IMG/VR virus record: IMGVR_UViG_3300021961_000427
Coordinates: 1 to 29,904 of that record
Reading direction: 5' to 3' (one strand)
Origin: a virus
DNA: 29,904 nt
Below, piece by piece: positions 5,427 through 29,779 of this stretch (position 1 is the first letter of the stretch; each line of letters starts with the position of its first letter). The notes beneath the pieces were generated by a model. That model was not told where the DNA came from and made no database searches. It worked only from the letters and a program-made list of their open reading frames with translations. The translations under genes and the position numbers were made by a program.

Positions 5427-5854
5427 CCGAGGAGATCCTCAGCTGAGATGGATGCCTGCTTGGGTGGCTGATACTGCGCCACATACTTCTTCGCAGGGTT
5501 CAGTCCCGGCTTCGAGGCTGGTTCGTCGGCAGCGTATTTGACTGCGAGGATTCCGCCGGCTTCGAGGTTCACACCAGCGTCGGTGAGTGCCTGCTTGATC
5601 GCGCTGAGCATGTATCCCTTGGCGAACAGGCGTGTCTCCTCTTGAGTGTCCTGGTCGATGCCGGTGAACACGAACTGCATCTTGGGTTTGCCGTCGGCCC
5701 AGGTGATGGGTTCGCCGGTGATGAAGTCGGTTTGCTGGGTCTGCTCGAGGCCGGTGATCTTGAGCTTGATGGTGTCGCCGAGGTTGGGGAACTTGGCGAT
5801 GGGTCCACCGGATTTGGTGGTGAGTGCCTGTGCGGCTTGGCTGTCGAATGTCAC
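5423..5854 (-). CDS. putative single-stranded DNA-binding protein
   Basis: A 143-aa protein starting at a GTG (5852-5854) in a GTGA overlap with the nuclease gene. It opens with an N-terminal strand-rich region (GDTIKLKITGLEQTQ, KMQFVFTGIDQ) typical of an OB-like fold. It ends in an acidic, hydrophobic tail (SAEDLLG), like the protein-interaction tail of SSBs. It resembles proteins annotated as SSB in actinophages located next to a RecB-like exonuclease. By context it would coat single strands made by the neighbouring nuclease. The assignment rests on fold pattern and neighbours, not on a catalytic signature. Confidence 0.65.
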   Translation of the reverse strand: MTFDSQAAQALTTKSGGPIAKFPNLGDTIKLKITGLEQTQQTDFITGEPITWADGKPKMQFVFTGIDQDTQEETRLFAKGYMLSAIKQALTDAGVNLEAGGILAVKYAADEPASKPGLNPAKKYVAQYQPPKQASISAEDLLG

Positions 5855-7470
5855 TTCTTGGTTTCCTTGTCTGTCGGGAAGCCATCTTTGATGGCTGTTT
5901 GAATGTCGCCGGCCAGTTCGACTCCGTTCTCACCGTAGGTGACGGTGAGGTGAAGGTTGTCGATGGCGTCGACGATCCGAAGGGCGGTTTGCGCTTCGGT
6001 CTTTCGGAGAGTGCCGAAGGCGTCTCCGAGAGAATGGTGAGGAATTGTGTGACCGGTCGCATGGTCTAGCACGCACCAGGTCAACTCGTCGTCGTGGTGA
6101 TGGGCGAGTCGGATGATGAGGGTGCAGATTGAGAACCGTCGGAGGGTGGGGGTGCCTTGTGGGGGTGTGAGGGCGAGGGATCGGCCTTGGCTGAATGCCT
6201 GATCGAGAATTGCCTTTGCCCAAAGCAAGCCGTCTGTCGGGAGTTCTTCCATCGCTTCGGCGTTGAGGCGGTCGACGAGTTGCAGGTCGACGAGGATGTC
6301 GTTGGCGTCGGAGATTGGGCGACGTCGCTTCGATTTCGCTGGAGGTTTGGGTGGTGGGTTCTGTTCTGGGAGGGATGCGAAGGGCAGTCCGAAGCGTTTT
6401 TCGAGTACGTCGAGGACGCGTCCGATGCCGTCGGCTTGGTCGAGGGTGATGGGGTCACCGGATTTGAGGGTGGGATGGTCGTCGGGCCATGCCTCGAGCA
6501 GCTCTTGAGTGTGGCCGGCGACGACGATCGTTTCGATCCGTTGCCTGGTGGCTTTGCGCCATGCGTCGTCGACGTGCTGAACCTGACCGGGCCGTGTGGG
6601 GCCGTTCAGAGCCGCTGTGGCCTGCTGAATGGTGAATGGGTGCAGTGTCTGTGCTTTGCGCATCTGACGGACGCTCAGGGCCGTTTGGAGGGCTTCTGCG
6701 CCGATCTGCAGGTCAAGCCAATGCAGTTCAACATGTCCGGAGGCTGGTTGGCAGTGAATGATGATCCCGGTCGATCTCGAGACGTTCGGCATGGCTTCGC
6801 GCAGATCCTCCGAACCGTCCTTCGCCGCGCCCTGGGTGTAGAGGTTGTGGGCGTTGGCGTAGATGGCGAGCTGAATGGCGAAACCGAGGCCACCGTATTT
6901 GACCGATGAGCCGGTTTTGAGGTCGGCGATGAATGTTTCGGTGCCGTTGGTGAGGAGCAGGTCGAAGGTTCCGGCGACCTGGATGTCGTCGTTGACGACG
7001 ATTCGTTCGGTCATGCCGTCGACGACTGACAGTCCAGCATCGGCCAGGGCGGCGAGGATGCCGTCGATGTCGACGTCATAGGGTGCTGGCGGCTGGAAGG
7101 TGGGGTCGAGGAGTTTGCGTTCCAGCATTCCGTGAATGGCGGTGCCGAGGTCGCGCCGAACGGTGGCTCCTCCGGCTTCGGAGGCGCGCTTCACAATGCC
7201 GTCGAGGGTTTTCTTGTCGTCGTTGTCGGTGGTGGCGATGAGGGCGACAAGGTCGGGTCGGGCTGCCAAGCCGATGGCGGTCATGCGCGCGTTCCATGCC
7301 ATCAGACTCGAGGTGTCGTCGAGAACTTTGGCGATGGTGGTGGCTCTGGTGTAACCGACCGGCTTTCCTCCACCAGGTGGGACGACCTGGTAGCGGCCCC
7401 ACCGGTCACGTCGAACCTCGATGTCGGGTTCGTTGAGTTTGATGATGTCGTCGGGGTTTAGCATTGGCAC
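5851..7470 (-). CDS. PD-(D/E)XK exonuclease, Cas4/RecB-like
   Basis: A 539-aa protein. I choose the GTG at 7470 because AGGAG lies 6 bases upstream; the ATG two codons later would be too far from it. The nuclease core shows His113 (GTAIHGMLE), Asp170 (GTFDLLL), Asp183-x-Lys185 (IADLKTG) and QLAIY (Gln200, Tyr204), the usual order of a RecB-family PD-(D/E)XK nuclease. A basic linker (PPPKPPAKSKRRR) near residue 385 leads to a C-terminal region of unknown fold. It would degrade DNA ends for recombination or host DNA breakdown, together with the downstream SSB-like protein. The plus-strand membrane gene starts 27 bases away, head to head. Confidence 0.85.
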   Translation of the reverse strand: MPMLNPDDIIKLNEPDIEVRRDRWGRYQVVPPGGGKPVGYTRATTIAKVLDDTSSLMAWNARMTAIGLAARPDLVALIATTDNDDKKTLDGIVKRASEAGGATVRRDLGTAIHGMLERKLLDPTFQPPAPYDVDIDGILAALADAGLSVVDGMTERIVVNDDIQVAGTFDLLLTNGTETFIADLKTGSSVKYGGLGFAIQLAIYANAHNLYTQGAAKDGSEDLREAMPNVSRSTGIIIHCQPASGHVELHWLDLQIGAEALQTALSVRQMRKAQTLHPFTIQQATAALNGPTRPGQVQHVDDAWRKATRQRIETIVVAGHTQELLEAWPDDHPTLKSGDPITLDQADGIGRVLDVLEKRFGLPFASLPEQNPPPKPPAKSKRRRPISDANDILVDLQLVDRLNAEAMEELPTDGLLWAKAILDQAFSQGRSLALTPPQGTPTLRRFSICTLIIRLAHHHDDELTWCVLDHATGHTIPHHSLGDAFGTLRKTEAQTALRIVDAIDNLHLTVTYGENGVELAGDIQTAIKDGFPTDKETKK

Positions 7471-13601: not shown

Positions 13602-15584
13602 CTAATAGCCGAGGATGTTGGTGTCGAGAACTCCGAGCGTCGCAGAGTCTAGAACGAACGGTGCATTGTCCAAGGCTGCTGTCGTGTTGAACGTCACCAC
13701 CCAGTTGTCACGCGTGATCGAATGTTTCACACCTTCGATGATGAGTGACTTTGTGATCTGTGAGCCGACGCCTTGGGGGTTGCGTTCGACGGTGATTCGA
13801 TCGCCGATGTCGAGGGTGACACACGGAGATTGGTAGGTAGTGGATTTGCGAGCGTTGACAGACAGCTGGTCGATTCGCATCTTCGGGTCTTTGTATTGAC
13901 CGAGCCGATAGATGGCTGTGTTCGCGATGTAGTAGCCGTCGTCTGCGATGAACCGGTCGATCGTCAACGATCGTTTGAAGTATTTGCCCTGGGAGCTGCT
14001 GTCAATGGCGGTGTAGGTGGTTCCGTTGGGTTGGGTGACGGTGATGTCGTTGAAGATGTAGCGGTCGTCATAGGTGAGGACGATGTCGGAGTATGCGATT
14101 TCGCCGACGCCAGGGTTGTCGGTGAAGGTCGCTTGTGAGGTGATGAAGTTGCCGGAACCTTCCGCGTTCCGGTCGATGAACCGGATTTTGCCGTCGACGG
14201 ACATGAACAGGCGACCCTGCTCGGCCGTCTCCACTTCTTTCAAAGCATCGAGGAGCCCTTTGCCGTTCATTTGAACTCCGATGACGGTGGTGTCTCCGGT
14301 GTTGAGGTCGAGACCGTCGGTCATCCAGTCGGCGGTATCGGCGAGGTAGGTTATGCGTTCGTCGGTGCGTTCTCCTTGACGTCCTTGTCCGGAGCCGGCT
14401 TCATAGTGGGAGAGGATCTGGGCGGCCGTGAGGAGTGTGCCGTTGTAGATGACGAGGTCTTGGATTGAGCCTTTGAAGTAGTTGGTGAAGTTGTTTGAGG
14501 CGGTTGCGCTTTTATTGATCGGATAACCGAGGGTCATGTAGGAGTATCCGTTGTCCACGACGTCGGAATAAGAGCCTGAGACTGTCGCCAACTGGCCGTC
14601 GACATAGAGGTTGAATGTGTTTCCAAATGAGGGGTCGGATTGATAGACAAGGGCGACGTGATGTGGTTTGCCGTCGTTGACGGTGATCTGTGCGTTCTTG
14701 GTGGTCATCGTGCTTGATGTGCCTCGATGGCCGAACTGTGCGACGACTGTGGCGTTGCCGGATGCGACGACTATTCCGCAGGCTCCTCCGTGGATGAAGT
14801 TGGCGTGGTTCCAGATGCCGTAGTTGCCGGTCGTGGATTCTGTGGTTTGAATCCACATCTCCACAGTCCATGCTGAAGAAACGGCACCGGAGACACCATC
14901 GACTCCCAAAGGGTCGACGATTTGCAGGATCTTCTGACCATCGAACGACGATGACGTGGCCGGATCGTCGACTACCAGCGGCGATCCTGGTGTGCAATAC
15001 GACTCGACACCAGCAGTCGAAGACATCCACTGCGCCGATCCTGCCGACCATGATCGAATCTCGAAAGCGTAGAAACTGCCGTTGAAGTCGGAGAGGCGAT
15101 ACCAGGACGTCGAACCCGATTCGGTGATGATCTTGTTCCAATAGGACGGCAGTTTGTATTCGTTCAATACTTTGAACGCGTCAGTAGCAGTAACCGTCAC
15201 TGTCGCTTCGTTCGGCCATGAATACGCCTGAGGCCATTGGTCGATAAACCCGAAGAAGATCGACCGGATCGTCCCACCGGACGGGGTGACACGAATACGA
15301 ATGGGGCGGAGTGGTGTGAGTTTGCCGTAATAGGTGCCGGCGGTGTTCTCCGGATCGAACAGGCGTGTCCGATTGTCGAGGAGAACCTGACATGATCCGG
15401 CCGAGTATGTGTCCAGCTCAGACGATCGGCCTCTCGAGGTTGATACCTCGCGCACATGTTCGGTCACATCAGTCCAGGTGATGGAGGACAGTGTGGAGCC
15501 GAGTGGGACAGTACCGTCGCCGGCGGTGGTGGAGAATCCGATCTCGACGGTGAGTGTCATGCCGTCGAACAGCACTTCACTCAT
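13602..15584 (-). CDS. minor tail protein with inserted LamG domain
   Basis: A 660-aa protein from the ATG at 15584, in an ATGA overlap with the tape measure stop. The outer parts look like a tail hub/baseplate protein: VTEHVREVSTSRGRSSELDT and the RIRVTP...IFFGFIDQWP strands in the first 140 residues, and GDRITVERNPQG with WVVTFNT near the end. Inserted between about 160 and 395 is a concanavalin/LamG-type jelly roll (WTVEMWIQT, HHVALVY, FNLYVDGQL, FKGSIQDLVIYNGTLLTAAQ). The LamG fold often binds sugars, so the distal tail may contact host glycans. Confidence 0.85.
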   Translation of the reverse strand: MSEVLFDGMTLTVEIGFSTTAGDGTVPLGSTLSSITWTDVTEHVREVSTSRGRSSELDTYSAGSCQVLLDNRTRLFDPENTAGTYYGKLTPLRPIRIRVTPSGGTIRSIFFGFIDQWPQAYSWPNEATVTVTATDAFKVLNEYKLPSYWNKIITESGSTSWYRLSDFNGSFYAFEIRSWSAGSAQWMSSTAGVESYCTPGSPLVVDDPATSSSFDGQKILQIVDPLGVDGVSGAVSSAWTVEMWIQTTESTTGNYGIWNHANFIHGGACGIVVASGNATVVAQFGHRGTSSTMTTKNAQITVNDGKPHHVALVYQSDPSFGNTFNLYVDGQLATVSGSYSDVVDNGYSYMTLGYPINKSATASNNFTNYFKGSIQDLVIYNGTLLTAAQILSHYEAGSGQGRQGERTDERITYLADTADWMTDGLDLNTGDTTVIGVQMNGKGLLDALKEVETAEQGRLFMSVDGKIRFIDRNAEGSGNFITSQATFTDNPGVGEIAYSDIVLTYDDRYIFNDITVTQPNGTTYTAIDSSSQGKYFKRSLTIDRFIADDGYYIANTAIYRLGQYKDPKMRIDQLSVNARKSTTYQSPCVTLDIGDRITVERNPQGVGSQITKSLIIEGVKHSITRDNWVVTFNTTAALDNAPFVLDSATLGVLDTNILGY

Positions 15585-18408: not shown

Positions 18409-18840
18409 TCATCGCAGAGCGGATTTGATTGCCTTGTCTACAGCCTGACCGGCGGCGATGGTCAGACTCTGTTGTGTTGCCATGATGCCAGGGTAAACGT
18501 AGCGGCCCTTCTTGATGATGGGTCGAACGATCGTCTGGTTCCTTCCCGGTCCTCGACCTTTCAAGGTTCCACCGAAGTCGAGCCATCCGAAGTACGGAGC
18601 GGCTGAGGATTTGCCACCAGCGAGAACGTAGAGCGTGTTTCCGCCGGATCGGGCTTTGACAGTGAACCTGGCTCGGTTTGACTTCGACGGTACACGTCGA
18701 AGAATGTTCGGAAGGGTGCTTTGGATGATGGCTTGTTTGAGGTCTTCGCGCAGAACTGGCACAAGGTCCGGATGCACCTGTCGAAGGTACTTCCGGACCT
18801 GTGCCAGATTGCTGACATAGATGCCAGACCCAACGGCCAT
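18409..18840 (-). CDS. HK97 gp10-like tail/neck protein
   Basis: A 143-aa protein from the ATG at 18840 (TGATG overlap with the tail tube stop); the longer frame upstream overlaps that gene. APYFGWLDFGG and IKKGRYVYPGI, in a basic mixed alpha/beta protein, are typical of the HK97 gp10-like family that helps join or complete tails. Its place after the tail tube gene rather than before it is a little unusual. Function assigned by pattern and position. Confidence 0.7.
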   Translation of the reverse strand: MAVGSGIYVSNLAQVRKYLRQVHPDLVPVLREDLKQAIIQSTLPNILRRVPSKSNRARFTVKARSGGNTLYVLAGGKSSAAPYFGWLDFGGTLKGRGPGRNQTIVRPIIKKGRYVYPGIMATQQSLTIAAGQAVDKAIKSALR

Positions 18841-19244
18841 CAGCCGTTCTTCGTCACCGTTCCGGCTGCACGCCAGGAGCCTGAGATGGTAATGGGGCCG
18901 TCGACCGGTGCGTCGACCGAGAAGTCGAAGAAGCCGGTGCCGTACCAATAGACGTTCGGAGCGTTCGTGACGTCCGGGTACAGGTAGAACTTGCGGGCGT
19001 CACCGTCGACAGCTGCGGTGTACGACTGCGCGGTGGCGTCGTCGAAGTAACCGGAGAAGCTGCCCTGAGCGTCAGGAAGGCCGGACACATACACCTTGTT
19101 GGTGTCACCGAACGAGGTGACCTCTTGGGTGTCGGTGCCGAACTCGGCTGACCACTGCTTGAGGAATGCGACGGATGAGGGAGCCGCCGCGCTGCTGGCG
19201 ATTCCGAGGTACAGGCGACCGTTGCGGCCGTGGCGACGTGCCAT
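18840..19244 (-). CDS. major tail protein (tail tube)
   Basis: A 134-aa protein from the ATG at 19244, behind AGGAG. It is a small beta-rich protein with an N-terminal GRNGRLYLGI and QEVTSFGDTNKVYVSGLPDAQGS-type segments, then KFYLYPD and YWYGTGFFDFSVDAP. SFGDTNKVYVSGLPDAQGSF is the typical short actinophage tail-tube signature. Ordered just before chaperones and tape measure. It polymerises as stacked hexamers into the tail tube and is a plausible target of the nearby glycosyltransferase. Confidence 0.82.
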   Translation of the reverse strand: MARRHGRNGRLYLGIASSAAAPSSVAFLKQWSAEFGTDTQEVTSFGDTNKVYVSGLPDAQGSFSGYFDDATAQSYTAAVDGDARKFYLYPDVTNAPNVYWYGTGFFDFSVDAPVDGPITISGSWRAAGTVTKNG

Positions 19245-19276: not shown

Positions 19277-20314
19277 TTACCTGCGGCCCGTCGGGATGGT
19301 CACAAGATCGTTGTAATGCTCGAGGAGCTGCCGAACATTATTGTCGAACGTGCGAGATGATACAGCGGAACGTGCTGCCCTTGCAGCAGAGTCTCGTTCG
19401 TTCGGATGGGCGAGCCAGTAGCGGAGCAGTTCACCGAACTCTTCGGGGCTGTCGTAGGTGGGGAGCATCCACAGCAGTTCGTCGGATTCGGGGCGTGATT
19501 CTCGGAGGAAGAAGGTGCCGGTGGCGGCGAGTTCGATTTCGCGTGGACCCATCGCCCAGCCGCTGTCATGCCCTGCCATCGCTTCCTTGCGGTAAAGGTT
19601 GGCGGAGATGTGGACGGAGGAGTAGAGGTCGACGGTGGTGTCGTTGGGCAGACACCCTTCGGGATGATGAACCAGGTACTGCTGGAGGGGGGAGTCGGGG
19701 TCGAGGTTCTGCCAGTTTCCGGCGAGGGCGACTTCGATGCCGGTCCAGTCGACAGCCTCGAGGAACTCGATTCGTGAGGGGAAGGCGGTTCCGACCCATC
19801 CGAAGTCTGCTCGGAGATCGTCTGATACTGGCCGGCGATAGTGGATTTCGGGGTCGTATGCCTGGGGAACGTAGAAGGTGGCTGGCTGGGTGAGTCGGTA
19901 CTTGTCGAGGTTGGTGGGGTCGTTGATGATTGCGAGGTCGGAGCGTGCTGCGATGGGGATCTGGGAGGGGTCTTCGTAGGGTGCTTCTGTGAGAATGACT
20001 GCGATCTTGATTCCTCGATCACGGATGATGTCGAAGGTTTGAGGTGGGATGAGGAAGGCGGAGGTGATGAGGACGAGGTCGGGCCAGAAGTCGAAGCAGG
20101 CGGCTCGCAGTTGCTCTCCGACCATGCGTGCGGCGATGTGGCCTTTCTCCTGCTCCGATACTTTGCCTCGAATGGCGTTTTCGGTGAACGTGATCCGGTC
20201 CGACAGGTTGAAGTTTCGGACCTCATGGTCGGTTCGTTGCAGGGCGCGCAGCCATCCTCGGTGGACGTCTGCGACGGAGAACTCGGGGCCAGGTTCGACT
20301 GTGAGGATTCGCAC
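19277..20314 (-). CDS. CgeB-like glycosyltransferase
   Basis: A 345-aa protein starting at the GTG at 20314, directly after the TAA of the previous gene. The N-terminal half (ILTVEPGPEFSVADVHRGW, FWPDLVLITSAFLIP, IKIAVILTEAPYEDP) and the C-terminal half (GPREIELAATGTFFL, EFGELLRYWLAHPNERDSAA) give a GT-B layout with the glyco_trans_1_2/CgeB C-terminal pattern, in which the Glu of REIE contacts the nucleotide sugar. It sits alone between the tail terminator and the tail tube gene, separate from the other sugar enzymes. Tail or capsid glycosylation is inferred. Confidence 0.8.
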   Translation of the reverse strand: MRILTVEPGPEFSVADVHRGWLRALQRTDHEVRNFNLSDRITFTENAIRGKVSEQEKGHIAARMVGEQLRAACFDFWPDLVLITSAFLIPPQTFDIIRDRGIKIAVILTEAPYEDPSQIPIAARSDLAIINDPTNLDKYRLTQPATFYVPQAYDPEIHYRRPVSDDLRADFGWVGTAFPSRIEFLEAVDWTGIEVALAGNWQNLDPDSPLQQYLVHHPEGCLPNDTTVDLYSSVHISANLYRKEAMAGHDSGWAMGPREIELAATGTFFLRESRPESDELLWMLPTYDSPEEFGELLRYWLAHPNERDSAARAARSAVSSRTFDNNVRQLLEHYNDLVTIPTGRR

Positions 20315-20710
20315 TTAGCCGAGAACCTCGAGGTTCACTTCGACTCCCAGGTATTCGATGCCGCCGATGGTGAAGGTGCCGGGGTTGTTCCAGCTGGTGA
20401 CTCGGCAGGAATCACAGGAGCCACCGAGGGTGGGGTCGGCGTCGATGACATGATAGATGGAGTCGTTGCCTTGGCCGAGGAACTCGTCAAGCCGTTCCTG
20501 CCCATGCTGATCGTCGGCTCTGGTGAGCATCACCAGCACTCCGTAGGTGACGAGCATTCCGTCGTTGTAGTCGGCGTCGTAGGAGCCGGTGCCGAGGGAC
20601 ACGACCGCTGCTGGCGGCTGCACCTGCGACGGAACCCACTCGTAGATTCGAAGGTTGTTGACGTTTTGGAGGGCGTCGCCGATGCCGGCCCTGACTGATG
20701 CGAGGTTCAT
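20315..20710 (-). CDS. probable tail terminator protein
   Basis: A 131-aa protein from the ATG at 20710 (ATGA overlap with the connector gene). An N-terminal helix (ASVRAGIGDALQNV) is followed by beta strands (AAVVSLGTGSYDADY, TYGVLVMLTRADDQ) and GGIEYLGVEVNLEVLG at the end, the pattern of lambda gpU/HK97 tail-terminator and related neck proteins. The order connector, terminator, then tail tube supports it. Cys residues (GGSCDSC) near 98-102 are unusual for the family. Confidence 0.65.
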   Translation of the reverse strand: MNLASVRAGIGDALQNVNNLRIYEWVPSQVQPPAAVVSLGTGSYDADYNDGMLVTYGVLVMLTRADDQHGQERLDEFLGQGNDSIYHVIDADPTLGGSCDSCRVTSWNNPGTFTIGGIEYLGVEVNLEVLG

Positions 20711-21342
20711 CCGATGACCAGCCCTTGACCACCTTGGCGACGGTACGGGGAGATCATCATTTGAACGTCAGGGTCGAGACGGGTTGAGACTCGGATGGCT
20801 CCGAATGCTTCGCCGGCTGCGAAACCTTCTGGGGTTTGCGCGCGACGGTAGATCCTGGCGGCTTGGATCAAACAGGCTTGGGCGATCAGATCCGGCACAG
20901 CAGCCCATCCCCATTTGGCGGTCACTTGGATTCGAGGGCGACGACCGGTGATCGGAAAGAGCTTGGGCTGGGTGGCGATGATGACGTTGTAAGGCTGACC
21001 CGAGACTCCACCGACGACTCCGTTGTACGGCTCGAGGATGTATTCGGTGGTCGTCCAGGTTTGGTCGTAGGTGCCGTTGTCGCCGGTGTCGGTTGCGATG
21101 ATGAGGCCGGTGGTGGTGGAGAAGTCGTCGACGGTGCAGCGGATGGCAGTGTCGGCGTAGTAGGACCGGGCCGAGGTAGAGGCGTCGAGGTAGAAGCGTC
21201 GGTTGCAGAAGGTGTCGATGGTGCGTGAAGCAGCCTCGATGGCGGCTTCCATCTGCGCGTCCTCAGCGGTGCCATAGTTGGCGGAGGGGAACAGGTAGGC
21301 TTTGAAGTCGTTGAGGGTTGTGTAGCCGTTCGTGATGGTCAT
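20707..21342 (-). CDS. head-tail connector protein (gp6-like)
   Basis: A 211-aa protein; the ATG at 21342 is preferred because it overlaps the glycosyltransferase stop as ATGA (an ATG five codons upstream exists). TTLNDFKAYLFPSANYGTAE, AAIEAASRTIDTFCNRRF and the late LIAQACLIQAARIYRRAQTPEG are hallmarks of gp6-type connectors, which form a ring under the portal. It is displaced from the capsid gene by five sugar-enzyme genes. Confidence 0.82.
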   Translation of the reverse strand: MTITNGYTTLNDFKAYLFPSANYGTAEDAQMEAAIEAASRTIDTFCNRRFYLDASTSARSYYADTAIRCTVDDFSTTTGLIIATDTGDNGTYDQTWTTTEYILEPYNGVVGGVSGQPYNVIIATQPKLFPITGRRPRIQVTAKWGWAAVPDLIAQACLIQAARIYRRAQTPEGFAAGEAFGAIRVSTRLDPDVQMMISPYRRQGGQGLVIG

Positions 21343-22019
21343 GGCGTTTGGCTCCATTTGCGGCGAAGACGAGTCACGTTTTCGGCTACTGCTGACCAGC
21401 GTTCCTCACCGGACTGAGATTCAAGGTGCGTGACAGTGACTCTGGGATCATAGACGTTCCGGTATCCGTCACGCACCAACGCCAACGACAGATCGACGTC
21501 CTCATAGCCGTTCCAATAGTCCACATCGAAACCACCGACCTCCCAGAATGTGGTCCGGCGGATCGCGAGGCACGCTCCGGAGACGGCTGCGACCTGACTT
21601 GGCTGGTCGGTCCAGTTGATCCGAATGTTCCATGCCTCGAGGCCTGGTTCACGTTCTAGATCGACGGCTACTCCGGCGCATTGGATTTCGCAGTCCGGGT
21701 AGATCAGTTTCGGACCGACAGCACCGACCTCAGGGTCGTCGAGATGGTCGACCAGCGAAGTCCAGTTGGGGTGAACGATGGTGTCGTTGTTGAGGAAGAT
21801 CAGATGGTCGGAGGTGGCGTGGGCTGCGCCTTGGTTGCAGGCGCGCGCGAAACCGACGTTGCGAGGGTTGGCGATGGTGGCGAGACGTTCGGTTCCGTCG
21901 GTTGAGCCGTTGTCGACGATGATGATCTGATCGACCGGATCGTGTCGGAGGATCGAGGCGAGACAGTTCTGGGTCAGCTCGAGCCGATTGAAGGTGGGGA
22001 TGATGATCGAGACGCTCAT
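21339..22019 (-). CDS. GT2-type glycosyltransferase (rhamnosyltransferase-like)
   Basis: A 226-aa protein from the ATG at 22019 (ATGA overlap). SVSIIIPTFNRLELTQNCL (2-20), VDNGSTDGT (35-43), NVGFARACNQGA (54-65) and FLNND (75-79) form a GT-A fold with the Asn-Asn-Asp metal site; VSGACLAIRRTTFWEVGGFD and YEDVDLSLAL carry the acceptor side. It resembles WcaE/rhamnosyltransferase-like GT2 enzymes. Sugar donor and acceptor cannot be read. It is part of the cassette between capsid and connector genes. Confidence 0.88.
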   Translation of the reverse strand: MSVSIIIPTFNRLELTQNCLASILRHDPVDQIIIVDNGSTDGTERLATIANPRNVGFARACNQGAAHATSDHLIFLNNDTIVHPNWTSLVDHLDDPEVGAVGPKLIYPDCEIQCAGVAVDLEREPGLEAWNIRINWTDQPSQVAAVSGACLAIRRTTFWEVGGFDVDYWNGYEDVDLSLALVRDGYRNVYDPRVTVTHLESQSGEERWSAVAENVTRLRRKWSQTP

Positions 22020-22759
22020 CGGATCGAATCTTTCAAGAGTCCGGATTCTTCGCAGAGTTTCCGCCACATCGCCCACAGCATCGCGTCGTCGAGTTTGCCT
22101 GCCTGTCGCCAGTGCGCCCCATAGGTGGGGTGGAGGTTGGTGGCGTTGAAGGCTGCGGCACCGTTGCGGACTTTGGTGACGAGCTGCTCGAAGGAGCGGT
22201 ATTGGAAGTGACGGTAGTTGAGTCCGGTGGCTGGGGTGCCTGGATGGTTGAAGATGAAGTGGTTGCCGAAGTCGATCCAGGCGTCGGGGTGATACCGGAA
22301 TACGGCTTTGCCCATTTTCTGTGGCGACTGCCGGCGATGCTGAATCCGTCGAAACGGGTCGGTTTCGACGGGGTCGTCGTCGTCGGTGGCGATGTGATCC
22401 CAACCGACAGCGGTGTAAACATCCGCTGGGGCTTGCTGGAAGAACTCGGCGAGGGTGCCTTCGGTCCAGTACCAATACTCATCGGCGTCGAATGGCATGA
22501 TCCATTCGGCTCCGAACAGGCTGTGCGCCTGATGAGCCAGGGTGGTCATCTTCTGGTCTTGGTAGTAGCCGACCTCGGTGTCCTCGATGACGGTGACCTG
22601 TCCGGTGTCTTTGAAGGTTTGGAGGATGAAGCCGGTGTCGTCGATGCTCATGTTGTCGGCGACGAGGATGTGGTCGATGCCTTGGTTGAGGAGATGGGTG
22701 ATGGTGTGGCCGATGATGTCGGCTTCGTCTCGGACCATCGTGATCGCTGCGACTGTCAT
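22016..22759 (-). CDS. glycosyltransferase family 2-like protein
   Basis: A 247-aa protein from the ATG at 22759, with AGGAG upstream and an ATGA overlap. AITMVRDEADIIGHTITHLL (5-24), ILVADNMSIDDTG and MPFDADEYW (with Asp91-Ala-Asp93) are the pattern of the glyco_tranf_2_4 branch of GT2. KMGKAVFRYHPDAWIDFGNH follows as the acceptor region. It is likely to act with the neighbouring enzymes; no transmembrane segment is seen, so it is cytoplasmic. Confidence 0.83.
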   Translation of the reverse strand: MTVAAITMVRDEADIIGHTITHLLNQGIDHILVADNMSIDDTGFILQTFKDTGQVTVIEDTEVGYYQDQKMTTLAHQAHSLFGAEWIMPFDADEYWYWTEGTLAEFFQQAPADVYTAVGWDHIATDDDDPVETDPFRRIQHRRQSPQKMGKAVFRYHPDAWIDFGNHFIFNHPGTPATGLNYRHFQYRSFEQLVTKVRNGAAAFNATNLHPTYGAHWRQAGKLDDAMLWAMWRKLCEESGLLKDSIR

Positions 22760-23337
22760 CGGATTCTCCTTGCCGGCACCCCAACCCATGTGGAGTTCGG
22801 TGGCAGCTCTTGACGGGGTAGGACGACAGCACCGGCTCCGATGGTGACTCGAGGGCCGAGGGTGGCGAGGTTGGAGATGACGGCTCCGGCTCCGATCTGA
22901 CAGCCGGCTCCGATGGTGACGTCTCCACAGATCGTGGCTCCTGGCCCGATGGTCACGAAATCACCGATCTGTGCGCGTGTGATGAATACGTTGCCGTTGA
23001 CGTGGCTGTGTCGCCCTAGACGGGTCTTGGGGCCGATGGTGGTATGTGCGCCTATGACGACCCCTGGGAGGGCTTGTAGGGTCAAATGAACGGCCGCTGA
23101 GGGATGGATGGCTGTAGCCGCCCCATCGGGACGATCTAGGCGTTCTCGAACTCTTGAATCGTTGTGTCCGATCAGATACCGATCGAAGTGTTCGACGTCG
23201 ATGCAGGGACCGAGAATGTCAGGACCGTCGACATGGTCGTCGAGGAAGCCGGCGAAGGTTTGACCGGACGATTTCACGATGGCGGCGATGTCCTGCCCAT
23301 GACCGCCAGCACACAACACCACCACCCACGGATTCAC
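22756..23337 (-). CDS. hexapeptide-repeat sugar O/N-acyltransferase (NeuD/PglD-like)
   Basis: A 193-aa protein from the GTG at 23337 in a GTGA overlap; the frame is open further upstream, but only inside the previous gene. It begins with a Rossmann-like WVVVLCAGGHGQDI (4-17). From about 75 come left-handed beta-helix hexapeptide repeats (VVIGAHTTIG, FVTIGPGATI, VTIGAGCQIGAG) and a WVGVPARRIR end. The family transfers acyl groups to amino- or hydroxyl-sugars. In relatives a catalytic His precedes the IGD turn (HExxIGD); here that stretch is FITRAQIGD, with Thr120 in its place. It may modify a sugar used by the adjacent glycosyltransferases. Confidence 0.83.
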   Translation of the reverse strand: MNPWVVVLCAGGHGQDIAAIVKSSGQTFAGFLDDHVDGPDILGPCIDVEHFDRYLIGHNDSRVRERLDRPDGAATAIHPSAAVHLTLQALPGVVIGAHTTIGPKTRLGRHSHVNGNVFITRAQIGDFVTIGPGATICGDVTIGAGCQIGAGAVISNLATLGPRVTIGAGAVVLPRQELPPNSTWVGVPARRIR

Positions 23338-23957
23338 AGTTTGTACCCTCGCGACCGGCGAACCCCAATGTGCCAGCACCGTGGCTCATCATCCAAGCCA
23401 CCCAGATAGCCGAACTGCCAGCCGTCAGCCAACAGACGCGCAGTCAGCTCAGACTCCAGCCCTGCCTCATACCTGGTCACAGCTCTCGGATACAGACATG
23501 GGTTGAAGGTGAACAGGTGCCGCTGTCGAAGCCAGCCTGGCAGAACCTGGAAGCGGTTTCGATTGAGGTTGTAGATGCTGCCGGCCTGCTGCTCCTCCGG
23601 CGACCACGGCTGACGATGCAAAGCGATCTGAGCCAACGATGGGTCGGCTTGCAGGTATTCGATCATCCACGGAATGTCGACCGGCTCGGGAAAGGTGAAG
23701 TCGTCCTCGAGATGGAACACGAAGTCGATGTCGTCGTTGAGATGATCCCAGCCTGTTTGGATCGCACCGGCCAACCCTTTTCGAGGCTGGTTGCGAACCA
23801 CATCGAACCCATCCGGACAGAAGCCGACCGGATCGCCGGAATCATCGACCAGGAGACGCTGCGCGAACGGATAGTCGAGACACTCGGCCGCTGACTGGAG
23901 GGTGCGTTGCAGGTAGTCCCAGCGGCCGTCAGTGATGACCAGCAGAGCGACGTTCAC
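23334..23957 (-). CDS. small GT-A glycosyltransferase
   Basis: A 207-aa protein from the GTG at 23957 (GTGA overlap). ALLVITDGRWDYLQRTLQSA, LLVDDSGD (35-42) and FHLEDDFTF (81-89, with the DD of the metal site) identify a GT-A fold, GT2-like. The C-terminal part (FNPCLYPRAVTRYE, FGYLGG) is short. It is more compact than most GT2 enzymes but shows no frameshift. Substrate unknown. Confidence 0.8.
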   Translation of the reverse strand: MNVALLVITDGRWDYLQRTLQSAAECLDYPFAQRLLVDDSGDPVGFCPDGFDVVRNQPRKGLAGAIQTGWDHLNDDIDFVFHLEDDFTFPEPVDIPWMIEYLQADPSLAQIALHRQPWSPEEQQAGSIYNLNRNRFQVLPGWLRQRHLFTFNPCLYPRAVTRYEAGLESELTARLLADGWQFGYLGGLDDEPRCWHIGVRRSRGYKL

Positions 23958-25378
23958 ACTGTCACCCCATAGCGGCCCCAGCGGCGAAGGAACGCTGCCT
24001 TGTCGTTGGCGAGTTGGGCTTGCATCTTCGGATCAGTCCAGTCGCCGGTTTGGGAGCCGCCTTCGATGTGGGTGACCTCGACCTCGAGGGCCATGCCATA
24101 CCAGGCTCCGGCCATGTCCATCGACAAGGTCATGTCGGTGTCTCCGTACCACCACATGCAGTCCTCTGGGAATCGCCAGCCCTGCTGGAACCACTCGGAT
24201 TTCACCATGAACGCGAAGCCGGCCAAGCCGCCGGTGCCGTCGTAGCGGTCGGCACAGATGCCGTGGAGCTGCATGATCGGTTCGTCGGCTTCTCGACCGT
24301 CATAGTTCGGACAGATCGCCACCATCGAATGATCCGACCTCAACCCTTCCGACAGCTGCGACACGAACCGATCGCCGATAACGATGTCGTTGTTGAGGAA
24401 CAGGATGTTGGATTTGTGGTGGCGGCTCAAAGCCCAGTTCACTCCGGCATTCCACATTTCATGAATGCCCATTCCGGAGCAGTCCATGACCTTCGCGAAG
24501 GTTTGCGATCCCAGCCACTTCACCGTCTCAGGGTTCGAACCGTTATCGAGGACGAGGATGCCGTCGTGTTCGCCTTGGTCGTGGAGCTGCCGGAGGAGTG
24601 CTTTGGTCATCTTGAGGTTGTCTTTGACCGGCACCAGAACGAAGTTCTTGGTGGGGATCAGTTCGGGCGGCACCTGAGGCCAGAAGTCTTGGGTGGTGAG
24701 GGTGCGTTTCTTGATGTGGCCGACCTCGATTGTGGTGTCCACATAGCAGGGGAACCCGACGGCTTGGGCGCGCAGACTGAACACATAGTCCTCGCCCATG
24801 ATGTCGTGGACCTCTTCGCCTGTCTCCTGGTCGGTGTAGTCCCATTGAACGTATTTGAACCAGGGCTGCGCGTCTCGACTGTTGGCGTCGAAGATGCGTT
24901 GAAGGACGGTTCGGTGGATGAGGACACAGCCGGAACCGATCGCGCCGACCTGCCAATGCTGTTCGGCTGGGATCGTCGCATACTCGCGTGGTGTCGGCGG
25001 ATCGAGGGATTCGAAGCCGATGCAGGCTGGGACGATGCGATGGTGGGGATTCCATTTCTCAGCCATGATGAGGGCGGAGAGGATGGGGCGTTCTTTCTCG
25101 TCAGCGGATTCGATCATCTGGTCGATGAGGTCGAATCGGAAACGCTGGTCGGTGTCGATGAACAGCAGCCAGTCGGCTTCACCCTCGAGGAAGGTGCGGC
25201 ACACACTGTTTCGCTGCTGTGGCAGGTTCGTTCCTGCTTGGGCGATCATCCAGCCGGCGTGATCGAGATAGCCGGCGGTTTTCTGATCCCATGATTTCAA
25301 CGCGAGAAGCGAGAAAACGAAGTCGGGTTCGAAGCCGCCATAGATGATGCCGATGGCGACCTTGAGTTGCTTTGCCAC
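23954..25378 (-). CDS. two-domain glycosyltransferase
   Basis: A 474-aa protein from the GTG at 25378, behind AGGAG. The first GT-A domain (about 5-225) has LPQQRNSVC and WLLFIDTDQRF with the Asp75-Thr-Asp77 motif. The second (about 245-474) has LVPVKDNLKMTKALLRQL, VLDNGSN, ILFLNNDIVIG (Asp331) and WWYGDTDMTL. Bifunctional enzymes of this kind can add two different sugars in turn. It is the first gene after the capsid hairpin and so the first of the sugar cassette. No membrane anchor is seen. Confidence 0.86.
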   Translation of the reverse strand: MAKQLKVAIGIIYGGFEPDFVFSLLALKSWDQKTAGYLDHAGWMIAQAGTNLPQQRNSVCRTFLEGEADWLLFIDTDQRFRFDLIDQMIESADEKERPILSALIMAEKWNPHHRIVPACIGFESLDPPTPREYATIPAEQHWQVGAIGSGCVLIHRTVLQRIFDANSRDAQPWFKYVQWDYTDQETGEEVHDIMGEDYVFSLRAQAVGFPCYVDTTIEVGHIKKRTLTTQDFWPQVPPELIPTKNFVLVPVKDNLKMTKALLRQLHDQGEHDGILVLDNGSNPETVKWLGSQTFAKVMDCSGMGIHEMWNAGVNWALSRHHKSNILFLNNDIVIGDRFVSQLSEGLRSDHSMVAICPNYDGREADEPIMQLHGICADRYDGTGGLAGFAFMVKSEWFQQGWRFPEDCMWWYGDTDMTLSMDMAGAWYGMALEVEVTHIEGGSQTGDWTDPKMQAQLANDKAAFLRRWGRYGVTV

Positions 25379-25388
25379 TGTGGCTCCT

Positions 25389-25422
25389 TGTCGGGATGTC
25401 GGGGTGTGTCGGGGTTGTCGGG
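25389..25422. repeat. four copies of tgtcggg before the sugar cassette
   Basis: The 7-mer tgtcggg starts at 25389, 25397, 25407 and 25416, spaced 8-10 bases. It fills the leader between the capsid hairpin and the ribosome binding site of the first glycosyltransferase. It could be a protein or RNA regulatory site, or simply slippage-made sequence. Confidence 0.45.
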
Positions 25423-25432
25423 GTAGGTGTGT

Positions 25433-25468
25433 ACCGGCCCTCCCACCCCCGACGATGGGAGGGCCGGT
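25433..25468 (-). terminator. hairpin after the major capsid gene
   Basis: The arms accggccctccca (25433-25445) and tgggagggccggt (25456-25468) form 13 perfect pairs around a 10-nt loop, 18 bases past the capsid stop. No T-run follows. It could partially terminate or stabilise the capsid transcript, giving high capsid and lower glycosyltransferase expression. Confidence 0.62.
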
Positions 25469-25486
25469 TCACTTCAGGTCAGACGA

Positions 25487-26893
25487 TCAGACCTTCAGCA
25501 CCTTGAAGGCGTTGGAGGTGATGACGTCTGCGCCGGTCCGCCAGAAGGCGAAGAAGCCGGCCTGACCGGTGGGACGCTGGTTGCTTCCCATGACCATCGG
25601 CTCGTACATGATCTCGACACCGATGCGGTCGACGATCTTGTAGCCGGTGCCGAAGTCGCCCAGGATGAGGACGAAGTCGTTGGAACCGGAGACGATGGTG
25701 GTGTCCATGGCCTCGTTCTGATAGGTGTTGTAACCGATCAGCTGGGCCGGGAGTCCGCCGCCGAAGTCCGACCAGAAGTTGGTGCGGGCGTCGGTCGTGT
25801 TGCGGAGGCTGTTGTACGTCGATTTCGCTGCGAGGAACGAAGCGTTGCGACGGAAACGTGCGCCGAGGGCGTTGTCCAGGGCGTACACGTCGGCGGCGAC
25901 GAGGTCCGCTGCGCCAGCTGCACCGGAGGTGCCGTTGACGACCGGGCCAGTGCCGGAAAGACGCGTGATCAATCCGTACGGCTGGCCGGAGCCGGTGCCG
26001 CTGATGTACGCGGTCTCCTCGAGACGATCCTTGGCGTCGGCGATGAGTTCGGCGACCTGGTTGAAACCAGAGTCGGCAAGGAACTCGTACGAACCGAACA
26101 GGAACGCCGCGGCCTTGTGAACCGTGATGGTCGGGCCGGAGAACGTCGGAGTCGCATCGGCGGCTTCGGTTCCCTCAGCGAGCCACTCAGCGGTCACGCC
26201 AGCGGAGGTGACGCCATCCCACTGATCGGTCGTGATGCTGGTGACCGAAGCGAGCTGACGGACAGCGTTCGCTGAGCCGTTGTTCGTGAGGACGATGGTC
26301 GGATCGAGGAACTGCGGCACCAGGACGCCACCGTTCGCCGCGGTCAGCGACATGGCGGTACGGGCCTCAGCCTTCGAGAGGATGCGAGGCATTCCAGCCT
26401 GCGGGTTCTCGATGTACTCCTCGAACGCACGCACATACTCGGGCGAGGAGGTGCGGACGATGTGACGCGCGACGATGTCGGCGTCTCCGCTACGACGCTC
26501 AAGAAGACGCGTTGCGTTCTCGCGAGCCTCGTCCTCGACGTACGAGGGAAGGTGCTTTTCGATGACGTCGAGCGCACGGCCACGAAGCTCCGAGCCACCT
26601 TCGGTGGCAAGGGTGCTGTGGTCGAATGCGTCGCGTGCGGTGTGGGTGTTGACGTTGATCGGTGCCACGGCTCCGTCTCCTGTTTCCTTGGCGACTGGCG
26701 CGAACTCGGCGACGCGTGCCTTCCGCTCCTCGAGGGCCGTCAGTTCGGCCTCGGAGGTGCGGACGAACTCGACGCCTGCATCCCATGCAGTCTGTTCATC
26801 TGGGTCGAACGAACGCTCTTCAGCGTCCGAGTGCATTTCACGAAGAACGGCCTTGACGTACTCGACCTCTTCGCGAAGGATCTGCTCGTCCAT
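25487..26893 (-). CDS. major capsid protein, HK97 fold
   Basis: A 468-aa protein from the ATG at 26893, overlapping the protease stop as TAATG and behind GGAG. The first 160 residues are charged and helical (EEVEYVKAVLREMHSDAEER, LTALEERKARVAEF), fitting a delta/scaffold domain removed during maturation. From about 170 the HK97 fold follows (GGVLVPQFLDPTIV, TAEWLAEGTEAADATPTFSG, ITVHKAAAFLFGSYEFLADS, GQPYGLI). It forms the icosahedral shell and is one likely substrate of the following sugar enzymes. Confidence 0.95.
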   Translation of the reverse strand: MDEQILREEVEYVKAVLREMHSDAEERSFDPDEQTAWDAGVEFVRTSEAELTALEERKARVAEFAPVAKETGDGAVAPINVNTHTARDAFDHSTLATEGGSELRGRALDVIEKHLPSYVEDEARENATRLLERRSGDADIVARHIVRTSSPEYVRAFEEYIENPQAGMPRILSKAEARTAMSLTAANGGVLVPQFLDPTIVLTNNGSANAVRQLASVTSITTDQWDGVTSAGVTAEWLAEGTEAADATPTFSGPTITVHKAAAFLFGSYEFLADSGFNQVAELIADAKDRLEETAYISGTGSGQPYGLITRLSGTGPVVNGTSGAAGAADLVAADVYALDNALGARFRRNASFLAAKSTYNSLRNTTDARTNFWSDFGGGLPAQLIGYNTYQNEAMDTTIVSGSNDFVLILGDFGTGYKIVDRIGVEIMYEPMVMGSNQRPTGQAGFFAFWRTGADVITSNAFKVLKV

Positions 26894-28446
26894 TAGAGGA
26901 CTCCTTCGATTGTGCGCAGCTGGGCTGCGCGTTGGTTGGGGGTGAGGCAGGAGTGCGTGTGCGAGTCCTGGCCGGAATCGGCGAGCCTCTCCGAAGTGTC
27001 AGTGCTGACGGGTTCGGGTTGGGTGCCGAGAACGAGTGCCCTGGCGATCGCATGACGATCGTCTTGGGGCAGTGAGAACAATGGTGACAGATCCGCTGAG
27101 CGCACGCCAACACTCGTCTCCGCATACGCTGGGAAGACGACGGGGCCGAGTTCGAGGAGTTTGACCTCTTCGAGGGTGCGGACCGGAATGTTGCCGGACT
27201 CGTCGACGCTGTCGCGAACGACCTGGAAGCGGAACGACATGCCGTCGATGGAGCCTGATGCGATCGCATCACGCACCGGCTGGATCAGCCAGTTGTCCGC
27301 CAGCCGTGCCTCGACGTACAAGCCGTGTTCGTCTTCACGGAGTTTGGTGATCTGACCGAGCGGCATGGAACCGAGGAGGGGATGACGGCCGTGTTCGAAT
27401 TGCAGCACCGGCATCTTCGCGTTGATCGACCGCTTGAAAGCACCGGGACGGATGCGCTCTTCGAAGCGGCCTTCCCAGTTGTCGATCATCGTGGATCGGT
27501 TGAACACTGCCGCGTAGCCGGAGAGGGTGAGGCCATCGCCGGTTTCTTCTGCCGCACGAACCTCGAATGGGACGTCACGGTACAGATCGGAGCGTGTTTC
27601 GGTGGATCGTGCCGATTCCATTTCCATCATGGGTTCTTCCTCGACGATTGGTTCTGTCGGGGCTTCGATGGTGAGTAGTGATTCCGGAATGACCCAGAAC
27701 TTGCAGATGCCGTTCGGGTCGATGTCGCCGGATACTACTTCACAAGCGCGCGGTCCTTCATAGAACGCACAGTTGGAACACACCATGCCCTCACCGGCGA
27801 AAGGATTGTCGTCGGCTCCGACATAGTGTGCGCCCTGTGCGCCGATGCCTTGATCGAATGGGCCGAAGATGTCGACGGTGTCCTCGAGCATCTCGTAAAG
27901 ATGGTTCTGGAGTGGTGTGACGGGGTAGATGCCGTCGATTCCACGTTCTGCTGTGTCTGACATGACGGACCTTTCATCGTTTCCGGCCAGAATCTCGTTT
28001 GCCCAGCTGCGCCCAGCGTCTCCACCCCACAAAGCCCACGCAATTCGGCCGTTCGAAGGGTATCCGTCCTCTCCTGGCGACCATCCTTGACCTTTTTTGT
28101 CGATTTCGTGGCGATCGAAATACGCTTTGACACGTTTCACCGTCGCGAGAGGCAGATTTCGGCCGTTTACGATGTCGCGTGCGCGTGCGATACCGATCGA
28201 GGTGCCTCCTCGACCGTATTCGCGTCGCCAATCCAGCCCACGCTGGGCTTCTTCCTTCATTCCGGCGGTCGGTTCGTAGCTTTCAGCCGCGCGACCTTCG
28301 TCACCGAACTCGGCGATGTTCAAAGCGGTCAACTGATCGTCCGCTTCGGCCTTCGTTTCATGGCATCCCATGATTTCGTCGGTGCCGGTCTTGACGACCG
28401 CCCAACCTGAGCAGCCCTCGACACCTTGGAGGACGTCATACGGCAT
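26893..28446 (-). CDS. multidomain prohead protease (HK97 S78 type)
   Basis: A 517-aa protein; the ATG at 28446 overlaps the portal end by 11 bases. Four modules appear: 1-47 (YDVLQGVEGCSGWAVVKTG), 65-152 (GLDWRREYGRGGTSIGIARA, KAYFDRHEIDKK, GRIAWALWGGDAGRSWA), 220-252 with four cysteines (Cys223, Cys226, Cys235, Cys248), and the protease at 300-410. Catalytic His352 (FEHG) and Ser404 (DGMSFRF) are present. The protease cleaves the capsid delta domain and scaffold. The Cys-rich module could hold zinc or an iron-sulfur cluster. An internal ATG at 27961-27963 (codon 162) has GAAAGG six bases upstream, so a shorter form may also be made. Confidence 0.9.
   Translation of the reverse strand: MPYDVLQGVEGCSGWAVVKTGTDEIMGCHETKAEADDQLTALNIAEFGDEGRAAESYEPTAGMKEEAQRGLDWRREYGRGGTSIGIARARDIVNGRNLPLATVKRVKAYFDRHEIDKKGQGWSPGEDGYPSNGRIAWALWGGDAGRSWANEILAGNDERSVMSDTAERGIDGIYPVTPLQNHLYEMLEDTVDIFGPFDQGIGAQGAHYVGADDNPFAGEGMVCSNCAFYEGPRACEVVSGDIDPNGICKFWVIPESLLTIEAPTEPIVEEEPMMEMESARSTETRSDLYRDVPFEVRAAEETGDGLTLSGYAAVFNRSTMIDNWEGRFEERIRPGAFKRSINAKMPVLQFEHGRHPLLGSMPLGQITKLREDEHGLYVEARLADNWLIQPVRDAIASGSIDGMSFRFQVVRDSVDESGNIPVRTLEEVKLLELGPVVFPAYAETSVGVRSADLSPLFSLPQDDRHAIARALVLGTQPEPVSTDTSERLADSGQDSHTHSCLTPNQRAAQLRTIEGVL
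27961..27975 (-). promoter_or_regulatory. internal ribosome binding site within the protease gene
   Basis: GAAAGG (27975-27970) stands six bases before an in-frame ATG (27963-27961) at codon 162 of the protease gene. Starting here would drop the first two modules and give a 356-aa protein with the four-cysteine and protease modules. Spacing and sequence are as good as for most real starts in the window. Confidence 0.4.
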
Positions 28447-29779
28447 CGGACTGGCCTTCTGTCGGTGCCTGCAACTGCACAGAGAACACTCCGGTGTGCT
28501 GGAGAACGGTGGTGTCTCCGGTTGCGACGAACTTCGTGACAGTGGAGGGTTCGAAGCCGGCTTCGACGAGCTGCCGCATCGACGACGCCTGTGTCGATCG
28601 GATGTCCGCTTCGTCCTTCCGGTCCTCTTGAAGGAACATGATCTGCGACGGATCGAAGGACAGTTCGCATGGCGTCCCGACTGGAAGGGCCAGGATGCGT
28701 TCCATCGACGCGCAGAGGTTCTGTGCGGTGGGGGTGAACCATGCGTCCGACCACATGCGTCGGGTTTGCGAGTAGTTGCCGGCGTTGAGAGCAGATCCGG
28801 CGAGTCCTTCGGAGATTCCGAGGAGCGTGGCCGGCACTCGAGACCGAAGCGCGATCCGTGTCTCATCCACACCCTGAGTGTTCTTGAGATCCAGCTGCGC
28901 GAGGTTCGATCCGGCCACCTTCACATCGGAGCCGCCACCGAGGACGAGGGTCTTGTAGGCGTTGCCGGACCCTTCGTGACGCTGGTTGATGACAGCGGCG
29001 ATGTCGGTGGCCTGCTGCTGAGTGGTGTGCGGATCGAGGGTCACGATCAACTGTGGTGTGGCGGCGTTGGCGAAGAACTTGGATTTGAACTCGGTGGCCT
29101 GCCGATCGGTTTGGATCTCCGACAGAACCGAACCGATCCATGACTGTCCACGCCACCAGAACATCGGATCGGGTTCCGGCTTCCAATGCGCCACCTGTGA
29201 TGGGGCGAGGAAGACAGGTTCGTTCTTCGAGTTCGGTCCGCCGGGCTGGTAGGTGTAGCCGACCAGCTCAGCATCGAGCTGCACTGTGGGGTCGACGTCG
29301 GATTCTTCCGAGCCGAACACGATCGTCACCCAGTCGGGACGGAGGAGCCGAACCTGACCGGCGTTGCGGTAGAAGAACGCGTTGCCGGCGAGGCTGTTGT
29401 GCTGCTCGGCCGCATACAGCAGCTCCGCCCTCGACAGATCACCAGGACGCTCGAGGACAGCGAGTTCGGTGGTGCCGAACAGCCGACCGGTTTCACCTTG
29501 CAGCAGCGACCGCCACTGAAAGCGAATCTGCGACATGAGAAGCGCGCGCGCTGTGATCGCAGCAGCCACCACACCGGAGGTTTGATAGACGCCTTGGACG
29601 AACCCTGGAAAGTTCCCTGCCACCGGTGTTCCTGGGGAACGCAGCGGAGACGACATGCCAGCGTAGGTGTTCCCGTTGAAGGAGAACATGGCGAGGACAT
29701 CTTCGAAGGTCAGAGAGTTCACATACGACCGCTCAGATGGTGTTGGGTTGCCGCTTCGCAGTCTGTCCAGAAGTCTCAT
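28436..29779 (-). CDS. portal protein, HK97 family
   Basis: A 447-aa protein from the ATG at 29779 (ATGA overlap). SGVVAAAITARALLMSQIRFQW (68-89), AELLYAAEQHNSLAGNAFFY, SQVAHWKPEPDP, GQSWIGSVLSEIQ and VPATLLGISEGLAGSALNAGNYSQ are the conserved path of HK97-type portals. It forms the dodecameric ring at one capsid vertex, through which DNA is packaged and ejected, and docks terminase and connector. Order with protease and capsid genes downstream is standard. Confidence 0.95.
   Translation of the reverse strand: MRLLDRLRSGNPTPSERSYVNSLTFEDVLAMFSFNGNTYAGMSSPLRSPGTPVAGNFPGFVQGVYQTSGVVAAAITARALLMSQIRFQWRSLLQGETGRLFGTTELAVLERPGDLSRAELLYAAEQHNSLAGNAFFYRNAGQVRLLRPDWVTIVFGSEESDVDPTVQLDAELVGYTYQPGGPNSKNEPVFLAPSQVAHWKPEPDPMFWWRGQSWIGSVLSEIQTDRQATEFKSKFFANAATPQLIVTLDPHTTQQQATDIAAVINQRHEGSGNAYKTLVLGGGSDVKVAGSNLAQLDLKNTQGVDETRIALRSRVPATLLGISEGLAGSALNAGNYSQTRRMWSDAWFTPTAQNLCASMERILALPVGTPCELSFDPSQIMFLQEDRKDEADIRSTQASSMRQLVEAGFEPSTVTKFVATGDTTVLQHTGVFSVQLQAPTEGQSDAV

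Follow-up and report, generated by a model that had tools for sequence, protein, structure and literature searches.

A conserved cassette of sugar-enzyme genes in the head-tail operon of an uncultured actinophage group and its probable role in virion glycosylation

Introduction

Virion glycosylation has been established for mycobacteriophages Che8, Corndog and Myrna according to PMC12363180, and PMC12619734 places these glycans at the C-termini of the capsid and tail tube proteins. The underlying work (Freeman 2023) is cited here as related in PMC12363180, PMC12619734, PMC11600133 and PMC11256854. Che8, Corndog and Myrna are actinobacterial phages in which several soluble glycosyltransferases (GTs), partly accompanied by methyltransferases, act on capsid and tail tube proteins. 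In this study, we analyzed IMG/VR record IMGVR_UViG_3300021961_000427, a 29,904-base uncultured virus record of uncertified completeness (the whole stretch is hereafter called the window), which likewise encodes GTs that appear to be soluble. A first-pass annotation of this DNA had described six sugar enzymes threaded through the head-tail genes and had favored glycosylation of virion proteins, noting that some actinophages are known to do so, as is the case for the three mycobacteriophages. Here, we report that the six genes form a strictly ordered and conserved cassette, for which virion-protein glycosylation is the best explanation, with a probability of roughly 0.7.

Organization of the cassette

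Genes were called from Pfam and PHROG profile matches, and relatives were taken from IMG/VR via the capsid protein. The structural genes on the minus strand follow the order portal, protease, capsid, cassette, connector, tail terminator, CgeB-like GT, tail tube and tape measure. As first described, five enzymes lie between capsid and connector and the sixth, CgeB-like, between terminator and tube, all on the minus strand. Several starts were reset from relatives and are later than those of the longest open reading frames (ORFs): NeuD 23337, GT_C 22759, GT_D 22019 and connector 21342. With these starts, 4-bp overlaps (GTGA or ATGA) join GT_A/GT_B, GT_B/NeuD, NeuD/GT_C, GT_C/GT_D, GT_D/connector and connector/terminator, and the CgeB-like gene begins directly after the terminator stop.

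Five of the enzymes are GTs and together contain six GT domains, two of them in GT_A. The DTD motif in the N domain of GT_A and the NND (LNND) motif in its C domain are conserved in relatives, as is the LEDD motif of GT_B. In the CgeB-like protein, 61% of columns are invariant among 21 relatives, and its PF13524 domain has a GPRE-x-E motif, of which GPRE is kept as far as the distant loci L106 and L108. Distant relatives of GT_B are found among the glycosyl/galactosyltransferases of Gordonia, Microbacterium and large (~155 kb) mycobacteriophages. In a collection of 50,697 phage records, no match was found for the CgeB-like protein and weak partial matches at most for GT_A; a nucleotide search of the window against the same number of phage records gave no match. 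Hydropathy revealed no strong membrane segment in any of the six proteins (the highest Kyte-Doolittle mean over 19 residues was 1.57), and the enzymes should therefore act on cytoplasmic substrates.

Conservation in close relatives

The 47 loci compared were collected through the capsid and not through the GTs; each junction was counted where the contig reaches far enough. The capsids of 46 IMG/VR loci are 78-94% identical to that of the window, and the L047 capsid is 47% identical. The capsid gene is followed by GT_A in all 33 testable loci, and the next eight junctions, in gene order, are kept in 24/24, 23/23, 19/20, 14/14, 12/12, 10/10, 9/9 and 7/7 cases (the last being CgeB-tube), that is, in 118 of 119. 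The single exception is L047, which has a methyltransferase and a uridine diphosphate (UDP)-sugar dehydrogenase behind NeuD. Median ratios of nonsynonymous to synonymous substitution rates (dN/dS) are 0.10 for GT_A, 0.19 for GT_B, 0.18 for NeuD, 0.21 for GT_C, 0.19 for GT_D and 0.13 for CgeB, all within the range of 0.08-0.24 observed for portal, capsid, tube and tape measure (the protease ratio was set aside because of wrong starts or paralogues); by these ratios, the cassette genes are under purifying selection. Their GC content (0.59-0.61, versus 0.59-0.64 in neighbors) bears no foreign mark. The kept gene order and low dN/dS indicate an arrangement beyond chance.

Distant relatives and cultured phages

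A profile search with GT_A revealed relatives at 34-49% identity in other viral contigs. In most distant relatives with enough sequence, GT_A lies behind the capsid gene, from which a single small ORF separates it in some cases. GT_B, NeuD and GT_C follow in order in L101, L103, L104 and L106, joined by GT_D in the first three, and an additional gene separates GT_B from NeuD in L103. In L106 and L108, CgeB immediately precedes the tube gene; a methyltransferase is added in L105 and L108, and the two GT_A domains are separate genes in L108. The N-terminal domain of GT_A alone was found behind the capsid gene in one actinomycetote metagenome-assembled genome and in two Streptomyces genomes (L110, S. 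speibonae NRRL B-24240, and L111, S. chumphonensis KK1-2; apparent prophages, with contigs 99 and 425 kb long), in which the connector comes next. The L111-type gene is rare, being present in 1 of 394 surveyed Streptomyces genomes (L111's own).

The cassette is absent from the cultured phages Brujita, RavenCo17, prophiGD02-2 and Jflix2, which have a homologous capsid. The 31-kb actinobacterial phage phiPsal1 (Pontimonas, MG835450) has a homologous capsid, protease, neck and terminator, and it fills the same slot in the order capsid, GT4, methyltransferase, GT2, neck, tail completion and tube. These enzymes differ from those of the window except for the GT2, which is related to GT_D, and no CgeB-like gene lies between terminator and tube. 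phiPsal1 itself is not discussed by its authors (PMC6106888). Glycan enzymes thus recur in the position between capsid and neck, as the arrangements in relatives and in phiPsal1 illustrate.

The small ORF (~80-120 aa) between capsid and GT_A was observed in L101 (5904-6140), L102 (6698-6985), L103 and L104 (after the capsid gene), L105 (9612-9986) and L111 (near 9656); it is absent from the window clade and possibly encodes a head decoration protein. A different setting was seen in Caudovirales GX15bay (MK557849), a 52-kb mangrove-soil phage: upstream of its terminase, the region shown holds seven genes annotated as glycosyl-, galactosyl- or rhamnosyltransferases. Two neighboring genes among them are GT_B-like (35%) and GT_C-like (42%), and a methyltransferase, an endoglucanase and a mannanase are encoded there in addition.

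Predicted fold of GT_A

The AlphaFold model of GT_A (predicted local distance difference test score, pLDDT, 89.5) is confident and has two GT-A-like halves, and its closest solved folds are K4CP (E. coli K4 chondroitin polymerase), LH3/COLGALT1, mimivirus R699 and polypeptide GalNAc-transferases such as ppGalNAc-T2. GT_A thus resembles double GT-A polymerases and protein GTs in its predicted fold, with two GT-A domains and DXD-like motifs. On the other hand, identity to these enzymes is only 9-16% and whole-chain superposition is poor (root-mean-square deviation ~19 Å); single domains superpose better on solved folds, at 3.4-5 Å in the best cases. Sixama, the top viral fold match, has no annotated GT in its first 40 kb.

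The NeuD/PglD-like protein

This protein matches VioB (6e-18), PerB (2e-12) and also PglD, and it shares with the NeuD, PglD, PerB and VioB sugar acetyltransferases a Rossmann-like N-terminus and a hexapeptide beta-helix. In contrast to these enzymes, the position of the catalytic His (H141 in PerB and H125 in PglD) is occupied by Thr in the window clade (Ala in L032) and in L101, L103 and L104, and by Gln in L106; among the cassette members examined, only the distant L047 has His. All members retain an H-x-H motif situated a few residues before this position, and the protein is strongly conserved. Its structural model was poor (pLDDT 64), and the fold search returned no significant match, the few weak ones being mostly PerB and PglD. 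Judged from sequence, the protein could be either an acyltransferase with a moved catalytic residue or a structural pseudo-enzyme.

An RNA element between capsid and cassette

A conserved RNA hairpin of 18 pairs follows the capsid stop, and repeats complementary to its loop are located just before the Shine-Dalgarno sequence of GT_A. In 20 sequences, 100% of cells in the hairpin are paired and 8 pairs are changed on both sides, which was equaled in 0 of 500 shuffles. The stem varies between lineages while loop and repeats stay constant; in L047, loop and leader both differ and still match each other (GAGTGAG/CTCACTC; shuffle p 0.0012). When the C-rich leader of the window is shuffled, by contrast, the window's own loop-leader match proves not to be significant. 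This element is likely a terminator or dosage control, and a pseudoknot between loop and leader is proposed as a hypothesis. The corresponding site of phiPsal1 carries a hairpin of ordinary type and a T-run. No Rfam family was found in the window, its RNA element included. An excess of CCCCGACA on one strand across the window was rejected as a signal, since it is partly Pro-Asp coding; only the tandem block before GT_A was kept.

A pattern scan of IMG/VR revealed the same loop-repeat arrangement in L189, L191, L196, L200 and L207, where it follows an apparent major tail gene (identified by position and sequence). The hairpin is also present in these matches, though the pattern did not require one, and the window's capsid profile did not detect these contigs. 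In most occurrences of this recurrent element, the hairpin loop is GTCGGGG, complementary to CCCCGAC repeats just before the next gene.

Possible function of the cassette

Virion-protein glycosylation is the likeliest function because the enzymes appear soluble, no base-modifying enzyme was found in the window or in two 34.9-kb relatives, GT_A has DXD-type motifs and a predicted fold like that of protein and polysaccharide GTs, and all six genes share the operon of the virion proteins. The methyltransferase and UDP-sugar dehydrogenase in L047 and the GT4, methyltransferase and GT2 in the phiPsal1 slot also count in its favor. The earlier preference for protein over DNA is supported by synteny, solubility, fold and precedents; the target may be capsid, tube or another protein.

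In the proposed mechanism, the six genes would be a late-expressed glycosylation module and a fixed part of the head-tail operon in this phage group. The enzymes would be made in the cytoplasm alongside connector and tail terminator, and sugars from host nucleotide-sugar pools would probably be put on new virion proteins, most likely capsid and/or tail tube subunits. GT_A, always beside the capsid gene, is the best candidate for chain start and first extension; GT_B, GT_C and GT_D would lengthen or branch the chain, and the tail may be served by the CgeB-like GT-B enzyme, whose gene neighbors that of the tube. The hairpin after the capsid gene probably holds enzyme dosage below that of the capsid.

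Several observations weigh against this interpretation. The close clade has no cultured member, and orthologues of the Che8 GTs (gp108-gp110) were not found: the best profile match of gp110 had an E-value of 0.007, and that between gp109 and GT_D (8e-6) is at superfamily level. The C-termini of capsid and tube lack a Ser/Thr-rich low-complexity tail, with 3 (capsid) and 5 (tube) Ser/Thr among the last 25 residues; such a tail is a stand-in for attachment at C-termini, and attachment could be elsewhere. GTs of other phages reportedly glycosylate DNA, diverse glycans included. With regard to the acyl-modified sugar that had been suggested, the missing canonical His makes this part doubtful, and the claim should be held back. 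Of the up to seven active sites once counted, six GT domains are present and the seventh, that of the acyltransferase, lacks its usual catalytic residue. The unusually elaborate glycan that was envisaged is conjectural: a cassette of this kind is normal for the clade, and the six GT domains need not all act on one chain.

A bolder version of virion-protein glycosylation would be an ancient capsid-coupled actinophage pathway, in which GT_A (or, in some phages, its N-domain alone), retained next to the capsid gene in widely diverged phages and Streptomyces prophages, starts and polymerizes the glycan on assembling heads, the His-less NeuD-like protein is an assembly or specificity factor, and the loop-to-leader pseudoknot sets enzyme dosage relative to capsid. 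As a whole, this proposal is tentative and rather unlikely.

Alternatively, the enzymes may glycosylate phage DNA bases and thereby evade host nucleases. Some phage GTs are known to decorate DNA, also with diverse glycans (Pyle 2024, as cited in PMC12619734), and GT_A has no PDB sequence match linking it to proteins. We consider this quite improbable, since the cassette is tied to the capsid/tail operon rather than to replication genes and the GT_A fold resembles protein and polysaccharide GTs. Moreover, DNA glycosylation usually requires a modified base (hydroxymethyl or other) made by a phage enzyme. As the first-pass annotation had noted, no such enzyme is visible: none was found in Pfam scans of the window or of two 34.9-kb relatives (completeness uncertified), whose families comprise primase-polymerase, AAA, PD-(D/E)XK, WhiB, holin, transglycosylase, collagen and few others. 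One of these relatives, mapped over its full length, extends from terminase to primase-polymerase.

The enzymes could also alter a glycan of the host envelope at a late stage of infection, for instance to prevent superinfection or to release progeny from receptors. Phages commonly carry O-antigen-converting GTs, and a weak match links GT_D to the GtrB-like PHROG 841. However, this explanation has little probability: Pfam scans and hydropathy revealed no membrane anchor, flippase or GtrA/GtrB-type partner, lysogenic conversion is unlikely as no integrase was found in the window or relatives, and envelope modification offers no reason for the invariant capsid-adjacent placement. Finally, it is barely credible that the cassette is recently acquired cargo of no fixed role, in the structural operon by chance: cultured phages with a homologous capsid do lack it and the phiPsal1 slot does hold other enzymes, but neutral cargo of recent origin is refuted by the low dN/dS and the strict gene order, and GC content is like that of the neighbors.

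Genomic context

Coordinates are listed in Table 1. The capsid and connector of the window phage are similar to actinophage counterparts, and a WhiB gene is also present. A tail protein with a laminin-G/concanavalin-like domain (window 13602-15584) is a possible carbohydrate-binding receptor protein. In L051, a gene behind that of the holin (5656-7188) specifies a collagen-repeat protein weakly matching BclA_C, which was not seen in the window and could be another target. Collagen-like proteins are glycosylated in some bacteria.

Table 1. Features of the cassette, its neighbors and the RNA element (window positions unless a locus is named)
Feature	Positions	Strand	Evidence or remark
Portal protein	28436..29779	-	PHROG 12, 2.4e-29
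Head maturation protease ORF	26893..28872	-	Peptidase_S78 6.5e-32; true start probably near portal stop
Major capsid protein, HK97 fold, possible target	25487..26893	-	PF05065 9.2e-44
Conserved RNA hairpin, loop CGTCGGGG	25429..25472	-	After capsid stop; 18 pairs
Three CCCCGACA and one TCCCGACA, complementary to hairpin loop	25389..25423	-	Just before GT_A Shine-Dalgarno; candidate pseudoknot
GT_A, two-domain GT-A glycosyltransferase	23954..25378	-	PF00535 2.6e-8 (C-terminal half); PHROG 1574 1.6e-15 and PHROG 34859 (N-terminal half)
GT_B, small GT-A, galactosyltransferase-like, LEDD motif	23334..23957	-	PF00535 1.3e-6; PHROG 3047
NeuD/PglD-like left-handed beta-helix protein	22756..23337	-	Hexapep 2.9e-18; PglD_N 4.5e-4
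GT_C, GT2_4/GT92-like glycosyltransferase	22016..22759	-	PF13704 6.6e-14
GT_D, GT2 glycosyltransferase	21339..22019	-	PF00535 2.4e-24
Head-tail connector/adaptor	20707..21342	-	PHROG 442, 4.9e-15; 36% to phiPsal1 neck protein
Tail terminator	20315..20710	-	PHROG 17840, 3.3e-24
CgeB-like GT-B glycosyltransferase	19277..20314	-	PF13524 4.2e-16
Major tail (tube) protein, possible target	18840..19244	-	PHROG 1407, 2.3e-11
Recurrent RNA element, window	25379-25486	-	
Recurrent RNA element, L047	5108-5180		
Recurrent RNA element, L189	9627-9668		
Recurrent RNA element, L191	1695-1733		
Recurrent RNA element, L207	5301-5342		

Comparison with known virion-glycosylation systems

If virion-protein glycosylation is the true function, particle glycosylation would be a built-in part of the head-tail operon, with its own enzymes, in a widely recovered group of uncultured actinophages, rather than an optional extra in a handful of mycobacteriophages. 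This question becomes testable in growable organisms through the capsid-GT-connector order of sequenced Streptomyces strains and the similar phiPsal1 slot.

Set beside the Che8 type from genes alone, the cassette would work like a virion-glycosylation system, although the Che8 GTs are not its orthologues. The Che8 genes encoding gp108-110 are near the right genome end, whereas the GT genes of the window are located in the head-tail operon. Compared with Che8, Corndog and Myrna, the window has more GT domains (six) and a NeuD-like protein, and it lacks Ser/Thr-rich C-terminal tails. Sugar-coating of the particle by a phage is already known in a few laboratory phages, and the enzymes encoded here are different.

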